A stretch of DNA of 24,934 nt. It comes from a virus. Shown in pieces: positions 3,837-22,824 of this stretch (within the stretch, counting starts at the first letter, position 1; each line of letters opens with the position of its first letter). A program made the translations under genes and the position numbers. Location: the IMG/VR virus record IMGVR_UViG_3300048121_000496, positions 1-24,934 of that record. One strand, written 5' to 3'. The notes under the pieces are model-generated. The model was not told the DNA's origin. It saw only the letters and a program-made list of their open reading frames with translations, and did not search any database.

Positions 3837-4766
3837 ATGGAACAAAGAAATATCCCAGTTACAGCAGTTGACCAATTCGATTTTCTTGAACATAGGAGAG
3901 AACAGGAGAAGAAACACTTTAATCAAATAAGGGGTAATAGTCCCTTAGATTCTATTCTTACTGTAGAGATAAACACAACAGAACTTTGTAATAGAACTTG
4001 TGTATTTTGTCCAAGACATGACCCAAAGGTTTTCCCAAATAGAAACTTACACTTAACAGTTAAAGGTGCAGAAACTATTGCAGAAGAACTTGCAGACAAT
4101 CAGTTCTCGGGTAAGATATCCTTTAGTGGATTTGGAGAGAACTTACTTAACCCCGACTTTATACAAATCGTAAAGACATTTAAATTCAATCTTCCGACTG
4201 CAACAATAGAGTGCAACACTAACGGAGATAAGTTAACTGTAGATTATGTGACTAACTTATTTCGAGGTGGACTTGACCAACTGTATATAAATCTCTATGA
4301 CGGGATAGAGCAAATGGAACACTTCGACACTATGATGGCTGAAGCACGTATAAGAGAAGACATGTATAAGTTCAGAATGCATTGGGGTGATTTCGAAAAA
4401 CACGGATTGATTTTAAATAATAGAAGTGGTGTTGTAGATTGGGTTGGTGTTGAAGACGACACTATAGAAAACCTAAAAGGTAAACCATGTCACTACCCCT
4501 TCTATAAAATGTTTGTTGATTGGAACGGAGACGTATTGTTCTGTTCTAACGATTGGGGAAGAGAACATGTCGTAGGTAATCTATTGACTATGTCTTTACA
4601 TGACGTATGGTTCTCTAAACCTATGACAAAGATTAGGAAACGTTTAATGAAGGGAGACAGAAGTAAGTCCCCTTGTAATAAGTGTAGTGTAGATGGTTCA
4701 CTATTTGGAAAACCATCGTTTGATATAGTGAAGGAATATTATGAGAGTAGCAATAACAGGAAGTAG
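3837..4766 (+). CDS. Radical SAM enzyme with SPASM-like C-terminal cluster motif
   Basis: This 309-residue protein carries the canonical radical SAM [4Fe-4S] motif C51-x3-C55-x2-C58 (CNRTCVFC), which binds S-adenosylmethionine and generates the 5'-deoxyadenosyl radical. SGFGENLLNPDF at about residues 96-107 corresponds to the 'GGE' SAM-binding element seen as GGEPLLHPD in relatives. C218, C236 and the C280-x2-C283 pair lie in the SPASM position, where further iron-sulfur clusters bind. The 26-base overlap with the following dehydrogenase gene points to coupled synthesis and perhaps a shared substrate. The known chemistry of the family covers peptide, sugar and cofactor modification; the substrate cannot be read from sequence. 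No precursor peptide gene is evident next to it. All key cysteines are present. Confidence 0.88.
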   Translation: MEQRNIPVTAVDQFDFLEHRREQEKKHFNQIRGNSPLDSILTVEINTTELCNRTCVFCPRHDPKVFPNRNLHLTVKGAETIAEELADNQFSGKISFSGFGENLLNPDFIQIVKTFKFNLPTATIECNTNGDKLTVDYVTNLFRGGLDQLYINLYDGIEQMEHFDTMMAEARIREDMYKFRMHWGDFEKHGLILNNRSGVVDWVGVEDDTIENLKGKPCHYPFYKMFVDWNGDVLFCSNDWGREHVVGNLLTMSLHDVWFSKPMTKIRKRLMKGDRSKSPCNKCSVDGSLFGKPSFDIVKEYYESSNNRK

Positions 4767-14745: not shown

Positions 14746-14946
14746 ATGACACAATGGCACGGAGGAAAGGGTTCCAAAAGACGGAACTCAAACGAAGAAC
14801 TTTACTCAGATAACTGGGAGAAAATCTTTGGCAAGAAAAAACCTGTAGTCAAGGCACATAAGAAAACACCTACCCATGGACTTACTCAAGTTCATAAAGA
14901 TAAGACGAAGGTAATCCCTCGTAAAGAAAAGTATAAGACTATTTAA
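14746..14946 (+). CDS. Conserved basic phage protein, MTQWHGGKGS family
   Basis: The 66 residues begin MTQWHGGKGSKRR and continue with NWEKIFGKKKP, a start I recall in many T4-like and other phage genomes as a hypothetical protein (MTxWHGGKGSxxR...DNWDRIFG). The C-terminal half is Lys/His-rich. The family has no assigned role that I know; its basic composition would suit nucleic-acid or ribosome binding, and here it follows the bS21 gene. Its stop overlaps the stop of the opposite-strand tape-measure gene by four bases, with no terminator hairpin between the converging units. Confidence 0.7.
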   Translation: MTQWHGGKGSKRRNSNEELYSDNWEKIFGKKKPVVKAHKKTPTHGLTQVHKDKTKVIPRKEKYKTI

Positions 14947-17411
14947 AAAGTTCCGTCTTGGATTGGATTCAGTCTACCTTGACTATATTCATCATTGAAG
15001 ACTTTTGGTGCATTTACTGATACGTAAGAAGTTCCGTTATTGACATTGTTAGTGTTATTCTGTAATAATGCATTACCACCACCATCACTTCCATACGTTC
15101 CACTTGCAGAGAATGACCTTTGTTCTTTAATAGATTGACCAGTCATAGGTTCACCTGCTAATTCGATTTGTTCTTTACTATACAAGCCTGGATACTGAGC
15201 ATTCCTTTCAATCATTTTAAGTTGTAGTTTACTGTAACGATTTCTTTCTGCCTTCAGTTCCATTTCTATCTGATACATTTCTTGAGACATTGCACTATCC
15301 GAAGCAGGGCCGTCCATTCCTTCTTGACCATCATAATAGTTTTCTCTTAACTCTCTACCAACTTCTTTACCACCTTCATAGTGGATTCTATACTTACCCT
15401 CGAGTTTAGTCATTCTATCGACAGACTCGTCCATTTGTTCTTGGACTCTTTCTTCTTGAGAAGTTCCCATTAGTTTACCAGCAAACTGGGTCATTTTTTC
15501 CCACCAAGTTAACTCTTTAGGAACACCTTGGTCTAGTCTTATCATTGCCTCTGTAAGAACGTCTACACTTTCTGCAAACTTCCTAAGACCTTTCGGGTCA
15601 AGGTTATTGAACATTTTGATTACGTCTAGAGAACCACCTAAGTGTTTAAATGCCTCTCCAAGTTGGACAATAGGTTCCATGTCCACACCTTCAAGACCTT
15701 TTGCAAACTCAGTGACCTTTTCCATTGGAGATTTTGCACCAAACAGTTTACCGATACCATCTAGTAAACTCGATAGAAGGTTACCACCACTCATTGCAAC
15801 TAAACCAACACCAATTGCAGCTAATCCAGCACCAACTGCGATTAGATTCAATCCGTCAACATGACTTAGTTCAACAATACTTGGAACAAAGGTTCCCATA
15901 GCTTCTGAAGCTATTTTAGCTGCATATGCAAATGGTAGAAGTGCCGCACCTAATAATCCGATAGCAAGTGCCCCAAGTGCAATCATTGGAAGGAACATAC
16001 CCATTACTGCGGCAGCAACTCCGAGTGCAATGATACCAGTTGCTAATACACCGATAGTTCCCATTCCCACATCTTTCATTAAGTTAAGACCGAATGCAAG
16101 AGGAATAAGTGCAGCTCCTAGTGCAAGGATACCGACTGAACCCATTAACATTGACTTACTTGCTTTACCGATTAGTTTGGATACTAATGCTAAACCAGTA
16201 AGTGCAAGAAGACCTTTACCCATTGTGATAAAGTCTAATCCAATAAATTGTTTTAATCCTATTGCAAGAAGTCCGACTGTTCCTGCCATAACACCCATTG
16301 TTAAGGCACCTCTTAAGACTTTCTTATCTCCAAATTTCTTTACTGCATTTGCAATTGATTTGAGGAATCCACCAGTCTTAGATTTACCACCACCTGCTAA
16401 TGCACCAGTGTCGGCAACTTTCTCTTTAACTTTATCTCCAGCACTTGAGACTGCATCTTTCATTGCAGTTGCTTTTTCTTTTGAATCTCCTAGGGAATTT
16501 GAAACACTTTTCTTGGAGAACATACCCTTCATTCCACTGAAGAATCCTCCAACCTTATCTTTCATTCCTTTGAAACCACCACCAAGTGTTTCACCAATAC
16601 TACCCATTACGTCACTGATAGCATTTACTTTCTTAGTGACTGTATCTGCAAAACCAAGTATATCAATACCAGTTAATTCGTTAATACCACCACTAAACTT
16701 TTCTAGTTTATCACTTTTGGTTGCTTCTTCTAAACCTTTTTTGTATGCGTCTGTTGTTTCAGAAAGTGCCTCAGTTCTTTCTTCTAAGATTTTTCTTTCG
16801 GCTGCAATTTCTCTATCGAAGGCAGCCGTCATTTTATCTGCTTTGTCTTCTCTATCTCTTTGTAAATCTTCTATAAGTTTGGTGTTTGCCTCTAAGGCTG
16901 CACCTTGTAATCCAATTGACTTGGAACGTGCTTCTTCAATCTCTCTATCTAACGTTGCAAGAACGTTATTGTTTGCCATTGACTTTTCTAGTCTTGCTTG
17001 TTTCCCGTCTTCAAGTGCTTGTAGCTTGTCTTGGGTTTCATTGAATTCTAGTTGTGCCTGTCTCATGCCTTCAAAGTCGAAGACCTCAGTCACACCAGCA
17101 ACTTCTGATGAGAAGTTCTTTTCTAATTGTTTTAATTCTTTGGGGTCAAGTGCTTCGGCACCCTCGGACATATATTTGTCTACAAGACCAGTGAGGTTTT
17201 TTAATTTCTTAGTTGCTAAAGCACCCGTAAAGGTATCCCTACTAGACTCTCTAAAGTCTGCAGTTATCTTTGCAACTTGGGGAGAAACTTCCTCTAAGTC
17301 TGAAATGATTTTTTGAAAACCAGGCTTCAGTTTAGAATTAACGTCTTTAATTTCGTTTGCTAAGTCTTCCCGTTGTTCTCGTATACTTTTGCTTCCGTCA
17401 TCGGTTGCCAT
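14943..17411 (-). CDS. Tape-measure-type tail protein (822 aa)
   Basis: The N-terminal 270 residues are helical and coiled-coil-like (REQREDLANEIKDVNSKL, LATLDREIEEARSK, RKILEERTEALSETT). Residues of about 360-510 are a run of strongly hydrophobic, Gly/Ala-rich helices (VLRGALTMGVMAGTVGLLAIG, read as several segments, then ALGALAIGLLGAALLPFAY). The C-terminus is polar with Asn-rich repeats (NNTNNVNNGTSYVS). This build, the large size and a position after a chaperone-like gene are those of tail length tape measures, which set tail length and enter the host membrane. At about 0.15 nm per residue it would suit a tail of roughly 120 nm. Sequence similarity to T4 gp29 was not recognised. AGGA stands about ten bases before the ATG. 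Confidence 0.72.
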   Translation of the reverse strand: MATDDGSKSIREQREDLANEIKDVNSKLKPGFQKIISDLEEVSPQVAKITADFRESSRDTFTGALATKKLKNLTGLVDKYMSEGAEALDPKELKQLEKNFSSEVAGVTEVFDFEGMRQAQLEFNETQDKLQALEDGKQARLEKSMANNNVLATLDREIEEARSKSIGLQGAALEANTKLIEDLQRDREDKADKMTAAFDREIAAERKILEERTEALSETTDAYKKGLEEATKSDKLEKFSGGINELTGIDILGFADTVTKKVNAISDVMGSIGETLGGGFKGMKDKVGGFFSGMKGMFSKKSVSNSLGDSKEKATAMKDAVSSAGDKVKEKVADTGALAGGGKSKTGGFLKSIANAVKKFGDKKVLRGALTMGVMAGTVGLLAIGLKQFIGLDFITMGKGLLALTGLALVSKLIGKASKSMLMGSVGILALGAALIPLAFGLNLMKDVGMGTIGVLATGIIALGVAAAVMGMFLPMIALGALAIGLLGAALLPFAYAAKIASEAMGTFVPSIVELSHVDGLNLIAVGAGLAAIGVGLVAMSGGNLLSSLLDGIGKLFGAKSPMEKVTEFAKGLEGVDMEPIVQLGEAFKHLGGSLDVIKMFNNLDPKGLRKFAESVDVLTEAMIRLDQGVPKELTWWEKMTQFAGKLMGTSQEERVQEQMDESVDRMTKLEGKYRIHYEGGKEVGRELRENYYDGQEGMDGPASDSAMSQEMYQIEMELKAERNRYSKLQLKMIERNAQYPGLYSKEQIELAGEPMTGQSIKEQRSFSASGTYGSDGGGNALLQNNTNNVNNGTSYVSVNAPKVFNDEYSQGRLNPIQDGTF

Positions 17412-17421
17412 ATGTTATGTC

Positions 17422-17808
17422 CTATTTTCCACCAAATGCTTTACCAGCTTCACTGATACCAAATGCACCAAGTGTAACTACTACGAATGACGTGTAGATT
17501 GTATCTGAGATAACTAAGTCTTGTCCTGCGAATGCAGTGACTAAGTCACAAATACCGAATACAGTCATTAAAGCAAATGATATAAATCCTATGATTGATT
17601 TTTCGTTTATATCATTATCGTCTAAGAATAAATCCATGAATTTTCTTTTAGGTGGTGCAAGTTGTGACCTAGCTTTCTTAGCCTCGTCTTGCATTTCCTT
17701 AATTTTATCTTCCTGTTCATCTAACTGGTCAATAAGTTTCATGTACTTATCAAGGGAGATTTCTACTTCATTGGTAGTGTTGTTCTCCTTTATAATTGTG
17801 TCTGCCAT
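17422..17808 (-). CDS. Small two-helix membrane protein before the tape measure
   Basis: The 128 residues have a charged coiled-coil N-terminus (KYMKLIDQLDEQEDKIKEMQ), a linker with KRKFMDLFLDDND, and two hydrophobic segments (SIIGFISFALMTVFGICDLV and SFVVVTLGAFGISEAGKAF). AAGG about eight bases upstream supports the ATG. Two helices close to the C-terminus suit a holin or an inner-membrane tail factor; its place between a chaperone-like frame and the tape measure favours a tail-related role, for example at the host membrane. No family recognised. Confidence 0.65.
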   Translation of the reverse strand: MADTIIKENNTTNEVEISLDKYMKLIDQLDEQEDKIKEMQDEAKKARSQLAPPKRKFMDLFLDDNDINEKSIIGFISFALMTVFGICDLVTAFAGQDLVISDTIYTSFVVVTLGAFGISEAGKAFGGK

Positions 17809-17832: not shown

Positions 17833-18033
17833 TTATTTTCTTCGCATTTTTGCTTGTTCAGCATCATGCTTGGATTTTTCTTCTTCAAGATGTTGCATGA
17901 GAAGTCTTATGTAAATCTCTCTTTCCCAAGGTATCATATTATCTAACTCAGTTAACGAATACTTATGATGTTGCATTAACTGAAAGTTAGTGTTATAATG
18001 ATTGAACACACTTTCATGAGAAAGAGCTATTAA
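17833..18033 (-). CDS. Out-of-frame 66-codon extension of gp26, tail-chaperone-like
   Basis: Past the gp26 stop, the -1 frame stays open from within the T-run to TAA at 17833-17835, giving 66 residues. The product has LTELDNMIPWEREIYIRLLM and a charged helical end (LEEEKSKHDAEQAKMRRK). It has no good start: the first ATG in frame is at residue 20, without a ribosome site. The segment with PWEREIY followed by a helix resembles the second ('T') part of tail assembly chaperones. If made by -1 frameshifting, the fusion is gp26 to Phe-Phe followed by Leu-Ile-Ala-Leu. Independent translation from an internal start cannot be excluded. Confidence 0.7.
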   Translation of the reverse strand, partial: LIALSHESVFNHYNTNFQLMQHHKYSLTELDNMIPWEREIYIRLLMQHLEEEKSKHDAEQAKMRRK

Positions 18034-18039
18034 AAAAAA
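18011..18039 (-). promoter_or_regulatory. Candidate -1 programmed frameshift signal at the gp26 end
   Basis: On the minus strand a run of eight T's (18039-18032) gives the slippery heptamer T-TTT-TTT immediately before the gp26 stop TAA. Both tRNAs can re-pair exactly after a one-base slip back. Seven bases later, CTTTC (18024-18020) pairs with GAAAG (18015-18011) around TCAT. The slip site, the spacer and the stem match classical -1 frameshift signals; the stem is short (five pairs). Confidence 0.6.
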
Positions 18040-18734
18040 TTCTGTATTCCTTCTAGCTTCGTCTTGTTCTCTTCACCACAACCAGCACACGTCCATTCAA
18101 TTGTATGAGTAAGTTTTGGTAATCCGTCATACCAACCACCTAACAATTCCAATTGAGGGAACGTTAATGAATCTACAAATTCGTTTCGTTCTTCACGAGT
18201 TAAATCTGCACCTTCATATACTTGTTCTTCATCAAATATATTAACAATAGATTGTTTAATTAGTTCTACCGCCTGATTCTGTTCGTCAAGTTCTGCAATG
18301 TCCTCAACGTGACTTACAGTTGGTACACTAAGTGTCAAACCTACCTTATCAGTAATCATAACTGTTTCATCTTCAGGAACTTCACCTTCTGCACGAATGT
18401 CGTCTAAGTTTAGAGTCAGGTCTGCTGTCTCTGAACATGTAGTGTTTCCACAAGGGAACATCAACTTTGAAGTTTCCCCCACCGACACTTTACGGACTTG
18501 AATGAATAACCATTCCATGTCTGTAGTTGGTAAGTCCTCAATAACGATACTGTCATTGGTTACTGCCTGCAATAATTTTTTAACGGATTGCATAGTCCGT
18601 TTTGCATCGTCACCTTCTTTTGCCTGAACTAATATGTTCTGTTCCTTTACCAAGAATGGTCTGTATTCTACCTCAAAACCACTAACTGGGAGAACTGTAA
18701 CATAAGTTGGTGTCGCCTGTATAGGTAATGCCAT
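18030..18734 (-). CDS. 26: gp26-like baseplate hub/tail assembly protein
   Basis: This 234-residue protein resembles the T4 gp26 baseplate family: FEVEYRPFLVKEQNILVQA (residues 19-37), a helical stretch, TDMEWLFIQVRKVSVGETSKL, then a C-terminal part with LTLNLDDI and LPKLTHTIEWTCAGCGEENK. Four cysteines in two groups (FPCGNTTC and TCAGC) look like a zinc ribbon. T4 gp26 is 208 residues and takes part in making the central hub of the baseplate. GAGG lies about ten bases before the ATG. The gene ends in Phe-Phe-stop on a run of eight T's, where a -1 shift would append a further 66 residues. Confidence 0.78.
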   Translation of the reverse strand: MALPIQATPTYVTVLPVSGFEVEYRPFLVKEQNILVQAKEGDDAKRTMQSVKKLLQAVTNDSIVIEDLPTTDMEWLFIQVRKVSVGETSKLMFPCGNTTCSETADLTLNLDDIRAEGEVPEDETVMITDKVGLTLSVPTVSHVEDIAELDEQNQAVELIKQSIVNIFDEEQVYEGADLTREERNEFVDSLTFPQLELLGGWYDGLPKLTHTIEWTCAGCGEENKTKLEGIQNFF

Positions 18735-20139: not shown

Positions 20140-21024
20140 TTAGAAACTTTTTATTGCTGTAAATGTTGGACATTCCCATTCTTTTTCTTCAAAGGGAATT
20201 TGCATGATATAGTCTAAGTCTGATTCAACGAATGTTTTATTGTCTTTCATGTGTATCTCTAAACAATTACTATTGTCTTCAAAGACATCTTCAACAAGTG
20301 TATCACCAAACAGACGTGGTTTTCTGAAATTAAATAGTTCTGATTGAATACGATATGCAGTTAAGTAATACATAGGTCTATTCTCATCAACATGCCATTC
20401 TAGTATTGGTTTCTTTGCAAAGCCTGGTGTCCCTTCTGCAAAATCTCTAGTGTCTACCCATTGTGCTTTATCAACTCTAGTAAAGATACTTGACCATGTT
20501 TCATAATCTAATATCTCTCTATCAAACATTTCGTTTTGACAATCCCAAAATATGATTGGTTGGTCTACCATTTTTGCAAGATACATTGCATATTGTCTAC
20601 AAGAGCCTGGGTGAAAGAACACTGTTAAGTCAGGTTTCATAACTCCTTGTGGATATGAATACCAACCATTCTTTTTCCATTCGTCTATAAGGAATCTACA
20701 TTTACTTGCATGAAAGAAACCATTGTCTTCTTGATTCTCCATTCTTTTATTGTAGAGTTTTGCTGGTTGAAGTGCCTTCTGAATTGTTTCGTCAAACCAA
20801 TCGTTATTACTTTTCCCGTCTGATAATAACCACGGGTCATTCTTACTATACTTACAAAGTGATTTAACATAGTTTCTTGCACCCATTTTTACACCTTGCA
20901 TGATTGACGGAAACTTTAATAAGTCTCCAAAGGTCATTAGTTTGGGTTTTGATTCTTCACGAATCTCATTGAATAGTGATTCTACTTTATCAAAATCTTC
21001 TTGTTCTTTCAAGTGTATCAACAT
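20140..21024 (-). CDS. Unknown 294-aa protein
   Basis: The protein has an alternating pattern with two notable segments: FHPGSCRQYAMYLAKMVDQPIIFWDCQNEMF, shown here in halves, which looks like a nucleotide- or sugar-binding loop, helix and strand, and WSSIFTRVDKAQWVDTRDFAEGTPG. The motif HPGSCR may be a phosphate- or ligand-binding loop. It has no signal sequence and no membrane segment. It lies next to kdsB, overlapping it by seven bases, and upstream of tail genes. A link to the sugar module, or a structural role, are both possible. No family recognised. Confidence 0.7.
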   Translation of the reverse strand: MLIHLKEQEDFDKVESLFNEIREESKPKLMTFGDLLKFPSIMQGVKMGARNYVKSLCKYSKNDPWLLSDGKSNNDWFDETIQKALQPAKLYNKRMENQEDNGFFHASKCRFLIDEWKKNGWYSYPQGVMKPDLTVFFHPGSCRQYAMYLAKMVDQPIIFWDCQNEMFDREILDYETWSSIFTRVDKAQWVDTRDFAEGTPGFAKKPILEWHVDENRPMYYLTAYRIQSELFNFRKPRLFGDTLVEDVFEDNSNCLEIHMKDNKTFVESDLDYIMQIPFEEKEWECPTFTAIKSF

Positions 21025-21776
21025 AATTTTTTCCTTAATATTTCTTCAACTCGTTTCAAGTCGTCAGGTGTGTCTACCGAATAACCCTCGTCTTCCACTT
21101 CAACCATTTTAACTTTAAATCCATTCTCTACAAATCTTAACATTTCTACTGATTCACTTTTCTCCAATTCACGGACTGGAAGGTGTGGAAACATTTCTAA
21201 GAACTCTCTATTGAATGCATATAACCCTAATTGTTGCTTGACAATGGACTCTTCTTTCTGATAATATGGTATACTAAGACGTGAGTAGTATAATGCATTA
21301 TTATATGAATCAGTCACAACCTTCACCACATTGTTATCATGTCTTTTTTCTGAATAGAAATTTAACTCAACATATGCATTAGAGACACAACCCAGTACAT
21401 GTTCTTCAATTAGTTTATCAATTGCATCAGGATTGATAAGTGGTTCGTCTCCTTGTATGTTTACGAAGATATCTCCTTCAATATCTTTGATTCCATATGC
21501 ACACCTATCTGTTCCAGTTAGTATATTTTCATTGTCAACGATGTGACAGTTCATGCGCATGCGCTCGCAGTAGTCGTAAATATCGACATTATCTGTTAAC
21601 ACTATAACACTTGAAAGTAATTTTGACTGTACTGCTTGTGAGTACACCCGTTGAATCATGGGAATTCCTAAAATAGGTTCTAATGGTTTACCCATAAACC
21701 TAGTGGAATGATATCTTGCTGGGATTAGACCAACAATTTTTTTATTGCTTTGATTGATTGTATCTTCAGACTGCAC
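21018..21776 (-). CDS. kdsB: CMP-KDO synthetase (3-deoxy-manno-octulosonate cytidylyltransferase)
   Basis: The 252-residue enzyme matches KdsB from end to end (E. coli 248). It has LIPARYHSTRFMGKPL (residues 17-32) for CTP binding, LTGTDR at 86-91, VNIQGDEPLI at 105-114 with the metal-binding Asp, then QLGLYAF, EKSESVEMLRFVENG and SVDTPDDL. It activates KDO as CMP-KDO, the donor used in inner-core lipopolysaccharide; NeuA-type CMP-sialate synthetase is the less likely alternative. The start is GTG at 21776 with GGAG seven bases upstream, inside the HAD gene, which gives about nine extra residues at the N-terminus. Embedded in the tail operon, it may alter host surface or decorate phage parts. 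Confidence 0.9.
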   Translation of the reverse strand: MQSEDTINQSNKKIVGLIPARYHSTRFMGKPLEPILGIPMIQRVYSQAVQSKLLSSVIVLTDNVDIYDYCERMRMNCHIVDNENILTGTDRCAYGIKDIEGDIFVNIQGDEPLINPDAIDKLIEEHVLGCVSNAYVELNFYSEKRHDNNVVKVVTDSYNNALYYSRLSIPYYQKEESIVKQQLGLYAFNREFLEMFPHLPVRELEKSESVEMLRFVENGFKVKMVEVEDEGYSVDTPDDLKRVEEILRKKLC

Positions 21777-22348
21777 TCAAAATCTCCATAACCATATTCT
21801 GCATGTATAAAATCTACACCTGCTCTATTTGCACAATGATAATCTGATTCCATATCACCTACATAGAATGTTTCATGTGGGTCTACATTACAGTGTGCAA
21901 TTGTATTTAGTAGTTGGTCAGGAGCTGGTTTCCCTCTCAACCCTTGTTTCGGTGAACAGACATAATCAAATTCAGGAAATTTCTTTCCTTCTAAGATAAG
22001 ACTTGCAATTACTTTCCTAACTCTCTTCATATCTTTGGAAGTACAGATTGCAATCTTAAATCCATTCCTTTTTAACCAATCTAGTGTGTCTATCGTACCT
22101 TCATATATGGTAACTTCGTCAAGACACATAGAACTTGCCTCGTCATAGGTCTCTTTGATTGCACGTTGATTGTCTATTATACCACATGCAGTGAGAATGT
22201 CAGGAAATGGTTTACCGATATGACTTGCATATTCTTCAAAAGGCACTTCAACACTATGTTTGTCTCTTACAATGTCCCAACTCAGGTTCATATTTCGTAT
22301 TGAATCAATTAAAACCCCGTCTAAATCGAATGCAATTAGTTTTTTCAT
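21725..22348 (-). CDS. HAD-family phosphatase, phosphoglycolate-phosphatase-like
   Basis: The 207 residues contain all four HAD motifs: D8-L-D10 (FDLDGVLIDS), ICTSKD (motif II), RGKPAPDQ (motif III lysine) and YVGDMESDY (motif IV acids). A helical cap sits between motifs I and II, as in phosphoglycolate phosphatase and beta-phosphoglucomutase-type enzymes, and unlike the capless KdsC. It overlaps kdsB by 52 bases and gp4 by four bases (ATGA), a tightly coupled group. The substrate is unknown; a sugar phosphate feeding the CMP-KDO step is a plausible guess from the context. All catalytic residues are present. Confidence 0.85.
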   Translation of the reverse strand: MKKLIAFDLDGVLIDSIRNMNLSWDIVRDKHSVEVPFEEYASHIGKPFPDILTACGIIDNQRAIKETYDEASSMCLDEVTIYEGTIDTLDWLKRNGFKIAICTSKDMKRVRKVIASLILEGKKFPEFDYVCSPKQGLRGKPAPDQLLNTIAHCNVDPHETFYVGDMESDYHCANRAGVDFIHAEYGYGDFECSLKIQSIKAIKKLLV

Positions 22349-22788
22349 TTGACTAAGTGGTCTTCTGTAAGAATTCTGAATCCATATTTCCTATCGTGAC
22401 AGAATTCATTAGCTGCTTTGAACTTTGCTTGGTTAACAACGTAAGTTGCAACCTCTTTTAGGTATCTTTGAGTCCTTCTTTTGGGTTCTTTGGGTGGTGA
22501 TAACTGTTTTTTGGGTTTTACTTCTATGATTTCCCGTATAACTTGTCCTTTTGCATTGACATACTTGATATAAAAGTCAGGAAAGTACCTATGAACACGT
22601 TTGTCTATTGGACTTCTGTATGGTATAATGATTTCTTCACTTCCCCATTCGATTATGCTAGGGTTATTATCACAATAGACCATGAATCTTCTTTCCCAAA
22701 GTGAACGATAGATAATTTTGGTGGGGTCACCCTTATATTTTTTATAGTTCTTTGGTTTAAACTTGCCAGAATAACTTTTTCTAGACAT
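22345..22788 (-). CDS. 4: gp4-like head completion protein (nuclease fold)
   Basis: Read from the ATG at 22788 the product is 147 residues; a GTG at 22797 would add three. It begins MSRKSYSGKFKPKNYKKYKGDP and continues IYRSLWERRFMVYCDNNPSIIEWGSEEIIIPY, which parallels T4 gp4 (about 150 residues) closely. HRYFPDFYIKY and IIEVKPKKQ carry the PD-x(n)-E-x-K nuclease-like residues. gp4 finishes the packaged head before tail joining. The ATG is preferred because T4 gp4 also starts at MSRK. The gene leads the minus-strand unit and diverges from gp48. Confidence 0.9.
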   Translation of the reverse strand: MSRKSYSGKFKPKNYKKYKGDPTKIIYRSLWERRFMVYCDNNPSIIEWGSEEIIIPYRSPIDKRVHRYFPDFYIKYVNAKGQVIREIIEVKPKKQLSPPKEPKRRTQRYLKEVATYVVNQAKFKAANEFCHDRKYGFRILTEDHLVK

Positions 22789-22824
22789 AAATAACACTAG
22801 TAATCATAATTTTAAGTATTTAGG
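22786..22824. promoter_or_regulatory. Divergent late-promoter-like pair between gp4 and gp48
   Basis: CATAAATA (22786-22793, plus strand) lies 42 bases before the gp48 ATG at 22835, and CTAAATAC (complement of 22816-22823, minus strand) lies about 28 bases before the gp4 ATG at 22788. Both contain the TAAATA core of T4 late promoters, which need no -35 element. The plus-strand element overlaps the gp4 start codon, so the two units share a promoter region of under 50 bases. Confidence 0.5.

Follow-up and report, generated by a model that had tools for sequence, protein, structure and literature searches.

A -1 frameshift signal conserved among T4-type phages probably joins gp26 to a gp51-type domain in a divergent marine clade

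The sequence analyzed here (the window) is IMG/VR virus record IMGVR_UViG_3300048121_000496, which is 24,934 nucleotides long and is itself a fragment of a virus. On its minus strand lies gp26, the gene for a 234-residue protein (18033..18734, with stop codon TAA at 18030-18032) that in profile searches matches the Pfam family PF12322, T4_baseplate (E-value 6.7e-50, above the curated cut-off), and PHROG 150 (1.6e-51). PF12322 is matched once in the whole record. The 3' end of the gene reads CTA GAA GGA ATA CAG AAT TTT TTT TAA, with eight consecutive T's at 18039-18032. The first seven make up a heptamer, U_UUU_UUU (18033..18039), that is in the gp26 reading frame, and the stop codon starts with the eighth. 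In the -1 frame, 66 open codons stretch from 18033 to 17836 and are followed by a stop at 17835-17833. A fusion of the two frames is predicted to have 300 residues, with N-F-F-L-I-A at the junction. The extension (17833..18033, minus strand) matches PHROG 634, "baseplate hub assembly catalyst" (gp51), with an E-value of 7.5e-24, and by profile search also matches the C-terminal end of PHROG 150. Both the run of eight T's ending gp26 at its stop and the 66 further codons had been pointed out in the initial annotation, and both are as described there.

Next on the minus strand is a gene for a 128-residue protein (17422..17808) that had been called a small membrane protein and in which we find two transmembrane-like segments; it is present in the same place in 22 relatives. 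This one small gene separates gp26 and its extension from the gene for an 822-residue protein with five hydrophobic segments (14943..17411, minus strand), which has homologues in the same place at 19 loci. The phiM12 protein in the corresponding place has a tape measure match in PHROGs (1.8e-5). The 822-residue protein itself had no significant match to a Pfam or PHROGs family and no match in the phage records of the collection searched with tblastn, and comparison with a Melnitz-2 protein did not support its identity as a tape measure. Judging by place, length and hydrophobic segments only, it is likely to be the tape measure protein. Antisense to its gene runs an open frame of 428 codons (16030-17316, plus strand), likely an effect of codon composition.

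We compared the locus with relatives drawn from IMG/VR by a gp26 search (26 loci), a profile of the extension (80 loci) and a profile of gp26 (80 loci), together with isolate phages of Synechococcus, Prochlorococcus, Pelagibacter, Methylophilales, Rhizobium, Sinorhizobium, Stenotrophomonas, Aeromonas, Vibrio and Salmonella, and thinned the loci to 113 lineages sharing less than 80% identity. The gp26 proteins are 76-82% identical within the window's clade and 26-36% identical to relatives outside it. All 22 contigs of the clade (L001-L022) have the same T-run, phase and open frame. The gp51-type extension is in the -1 phase at 196 of the 198 loci having both parts; the two exceptions are Aeromonas phage 25, where it is in phase 0, and T4, where the parts are on different strands, and in both of these phages the short (gp26) and long (gp51) forms are separate genes. 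An in-frame U_UUU_UUN and the -1 frame are retained together in 111 of the 113 lineages. The comparison that the initial annotation had proposed thus comes out in its favor, the relatives with a second frame in phase 0 being confined to T4-type phages with a separate in-frame long gene. Because the 22 clade contigs and 111 of 113 lineages keep heptamer and frame, the arrangement in the window is, on sequence grounds, more than chance.

The heptamer is UUUUUUC in 98 of these 111 lineages, UUUUUUU in seven, UUUUUUA in five and UUUUUUG in one, and the gp26 stop lies 3 nt past it in 101. The codon preceding the heptamer has T at its wobble base in every one of the 111 (background 32-80%), and TTT is likewise always the first phenylalanine codon of the slip site (background 68%). 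The naive P values for these two observations, 10^-23 and 10^-18, are overstated because the lineages are related; the same invariance is seen when a 40% identity cut reduces the set to 13 lineages. The -1 extension is present and the heptamer absent in Kuttervirus SenASZ3 (Salmonella; L038 3742) and Vibrio phage D504 (L036 3664). Phage D504 has TAATGG at the junction between gp26 and the extension, which suggests reinitiation in place of frameshifting in that phage.

The extension had been described as having no start of its own, and this is nearly the case: numbering from 0, codon 8 is a GTG and codon 19 the first ATG. Neither has a Shine-Dalgarno sequence, with duplex energies of +0.4 and +1.6 kcal/mol versus -7.8 kcal/mol at the start of gp26. 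Among the relatives, the first ATG of the extension has no Shine-Dalgarno advantage (mean -0.90 kcal/mol, versus -1.24 kcal/mol at random sites), and the mean at the gp26 start is -2.84 kcal/mol. A ribosome site belonging to the extension, which the initial annotation had weighed as contrary evidence, is therefore not what we see at these ATGs. In 43 lineages the extension runs for at least 14 codons without an ATG, and there the dN/dS of the stretch before the ATG is 0.27 in the -1 frame versus 1.49 and 1.36 in the other two. As this stretch is selected in the -1 frame and the first ATG lacks a Shine-Dalgarno sequence, the usual annotation of gp51 from an inner methionine evidently omits selected coding sequence, and in many public records a probable fusion protein is split into gp26 and gp51. 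In 52 of the 111 lineages, among them the cyanophage-type loci L090, L143 and L153 but not the window's clade, an ATG follows close on the gp26 stop, three codons into the extension; in lineages with that ATG, reinitiation could add a free gp51-type protein.

The slip site is flanked by two further elements. A Shine-Dalgarno-like run (18048..18053, minus strand) lies 8 nt upstream of the heptamer, and reads GAAGGA in the window, not GAGGG as in most relatives. Some 8-10 nt upstream of the heptamer, a conserved glycine is preceded by a glutamate codon, GAG in 74 lineages and GAA in 12, compared with a background GAG share of 31%, and it is GAG at this position that gives GAGGG. With the identity cut at 60% the bias persists (23:6, P 1e-7), and it weakens where few lineages are left (8:4 at a 50% cut and 3:2 at 40%). 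On the other side is a stem-loop, CTTTC-TCAT-GAAAG with an outer C-G pair (18009..18026, minus strand), whose inner stem pairs 18024-18020 with 18015-18011 around the loop TCAT. The CTTTC/GAAAG hairpin reported earlier is thus real, and its seven-base spacer holds when counted from the eight T's, the stem being 8 nt past the heptamer. In the window this stem-loop is weak, at -5.4 kcal/mol and z -0.86 versus synonymous shuffles. Across the family, the 39 nt past the slip codons exceed their synonymous re-codings in folding stability (mean z -2.56, t -12.8, n=111), compared with z of -0.6 to +0.1 for control stretches (the next two and five within gp26). The stems occupy several registers and carry compensatory changes. 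In the class to which the window belongs (with L010, L076, L112 and L117), 94.3% of cells pair and three of seven pairs show double-sided change; for the largest cyanophage class the paired share is 94.5%, and double-change cells number 8 versus 1.7 expected. Both sets of counts lean towards the chosen register because the classes were picked for sharing one.

This selection at the nucleotide level indicates what probably sets the slip family-wide: the Shine-Dalgarno-like run, the heptamer and, in most clades, a stem-loop just downstream. With slightly better than even confidence, we propose that these make up a complete three-part signal like that of dnaX, in which the stem-loop was re-registered between marine clades while the protein stayed alignable. 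A stem-loop rebuilt in different registers under an alignable protein would mean that selection holds the ratio of long to short form and not any one RNA structure.

We are strongly confident that gp26 undergoes programmed -1 frameshifting and is expressed as predicted forms of 234 and 300 residues. The frames, the signals and the selection can be read from the sequences themselves, and from them we infer the occurrence of frameshifting, its rate and the chaperone role. Our model takes gp26 as the gene from which this T4-type phage makes its tail assembly chaperone. The majority of ribosomes would read AAT-TTT-TTT-TAA and stop, releasing the short form (TAC-N, comparable to lambda gpG), while a minority would move back by one base on U_UUU_UUU and continue for 66 codons into a long form (TAC-NC, comparable to lambda gpGT) with the gp51-type domain at its end. 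If the two act as in lambda, the short form may coat the tape measure protein, and tail tube subunits may be brought by the long form. The initial annotation had arrived at short and long forms of a tail chaperone by a -1 shift, and the run, phase and frame in the relatives support that reading.

Phage T4 appears to reach the same end by other means. Both T4 gp26 and T4 gp51 match PF12322 (8.8e-64 and 3.9e-52, respectively). Along PHROG 150, T4 gp26 covers positions 14-235 and T4 gp51 positions 13-280, and gp51 adds a match to PHROG 634; because of these differences we read T4 gp51 as an in-frame long form and T4 gp26 as the short form. T4 gp26 would then correspond to the short form in the window and T4 gp51 to the short form plus extension in a single frame, although T4 has a separate gene for each form, on opposite strands, and the window one gene with a change of frame. 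In our tree, whose deep forks are poorly resolved, T4 gp26 pairs with Aeromonas gp26 and T4 gp51 with Aeromonas gp51, a single duplication being one possible reading. To obtain one and the same short/long pair, the relatives seem to rely on recoding and T4 on two genes. In Leiman et al. (2010) both T4 proteins appear among the hub assembly chaperones, with gp51 described as essential and of unknown function (PMC3004832).

We considered other explanations for the change of frame. A site within eight T's is where a homopolymer sequencing or assembly error, or a lesion in a broken gene, might be looked for, but the same arrangement is found in the 22 clade contigs and in isolate genomes, and most relatives have six T's followed by C and no long run. 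With the arrangement kept in relatives we reject both the error and the pseudogene reading, whose probability is negligible. T-runs of the length seen in the window can be slippery for some RNA polymerases, and transcripts with extra or missing U's would then encode the fusion. The 98 of 111 lineages with only six T's before a C have too short a run for this, however, and a Shine-Dalgarno-like run and an RNA stem-loop would act on ribosomes. As most lineages have six T's and then C, we reject transcriptional slippage as the mechanism of the family and think it extremely unlikely as the source of the fusion, although it may add to the product in the clades with eight T's only. It is also very unlikely, in our estimation, that gp51 is a separate small protein made from an internal ATG or GTG or by termination and reinitiation, with the T-run incidental. 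Public records such as that of Syn1 do annotate gp51 from the inner methionine, and the D504 junction and the ATG three codons into the extension in so many lineages fit such a start, but the extension ATGs have no Shine-Dalgarno sequence, selection on the protein in the -1 frame begins upstream of the annotated start, and T4 gp51 is an in-frame fusion. A separate gp51 would also leave the invariant U_UUU_UUN and the stem-loop unexplained.

What the frameshifted product does is a further question, as the Pfam and PHROGs family names, and older T4 genetics that placed gp26 in the hub (PMC3004832), would make gp26 a structural subunit of the baseplate hub and the extended form a minor hub variant. 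Against this, T4 gp51 is absent from the particle and gp26 is given as a chaperone (PMC3004832), the gene order places gp26 before a long protein with tape-measure features, and the modeled fold of gp26 is like that of the HK97 chaperone. An AlphaFold model of gp26 (pLDDT 85.7) resembles, over residues 1-95, 3fgx (Z 7.8), the HK97 tail assembly chaperone 2ob9 (Z 7.5) and YqbN 3klu (Z 6.8), all below the safe level of the tool. Sequence searches of gp26 against solved structures gave no match. Because a Foldseek search with the model gave no significant E-values, we take the likeness to the HK97 chaperone as support, not proof. The structural hub role seems unlikely to us, and by homology and position it is highly probable that the gp26 product is the chaperone of the tape measure.

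In the lambda G/GT and HK97-type systems, as in the frameshifted chaperone proposed here, the -1 slip comes shortly before the short gene ends, with a tape measure gene (here a probable one) downstream, and the model of the short form suggests a fold like that of the HK97 chaperone. As in lambda G/GT-type pairs, the second reading frame is in the -1 phase, abuts or overlaps the first and has no functional start, and a conserved in-frame heptamer lies near the end of the short gene. The lambda heptamer is G_GGA_AAG, unlike the U_UUU_UUN of this family; we found no sequence similarity to the lambda or HK97 proteins, and the window has an extra gene between chaperone and probable tape measure. 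The signal in Escherichia coli dnaX consists of a Shine-Dalgarno-like run about 10 nt ahead of the heptamer, the heptamer itself and a stem-loop behind it. That layout is common to both, although the dnaX heptamer is A_AAA_AAG and its products are polymerase subunits, not two tail proteins.

Vladimirov, Gautam and Davidson (Virology 2022, 566:9-15) reportedly identified the tail assembly chaperone genes of T4-like phages; frameshifting is said, in their abstract, to be kept in several T4-like groups, with T4 using genes 26 and 51. The initial annotation, which knew of no such description for gp26, was thus right about the window yet mistaken about novelty: to judge from what is relayed of that work, a frameshifted chaperone in T4-like phages has been known since 2022. 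In a review, Atkins et al. (2016) had called G-T frameshifting widely conserved in long-tailed phages "except T4" (PMC5009743). The PRFect paper cites Vladimirov et al. for one short and one fused long gene in T4-like phages (PMC10885494), and the phage Adele paper cites them for poly-T slip sites in T4-like TAC-N genes (PMC12846349). As represented by these citing papers, the T4-like TAC-N/TAC-NC system shares with the window gp26 and a gp51 domain, short and long forms and a poly-T slip site, but the window is from a divergent marine clade, to which the frameshifted tail chaperone is here extended. Apart from Vladimirov et al., known to us through the papers citing it, we found no description of the Shine-Dalgarno-like run and re-registered stem-loop; within that limit, the marine clade and the three-part signal are what is new.

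Some other genes in the window deserve mention. A radical SAM protein with a SPASM domain (PF04055, PF13186) is encoded at 3837-4766 on the plus strand. At 21018-22348 on the minus strand, upstream of the block of gp2, tail tube and gp26 genes, the gene for a cytidylyltransferase (PF02348) overlaps that for a HAD phosphatase (PF13419), and the two are possibly a sugar-activation pair. A 150-residue protein (22345-22797, minus strand) matches the TnsA-like endonuclease N-terminal domain (PF08722, 1e-22) and may be the gp4 head completion protein, which in relatives is encoded in this region.
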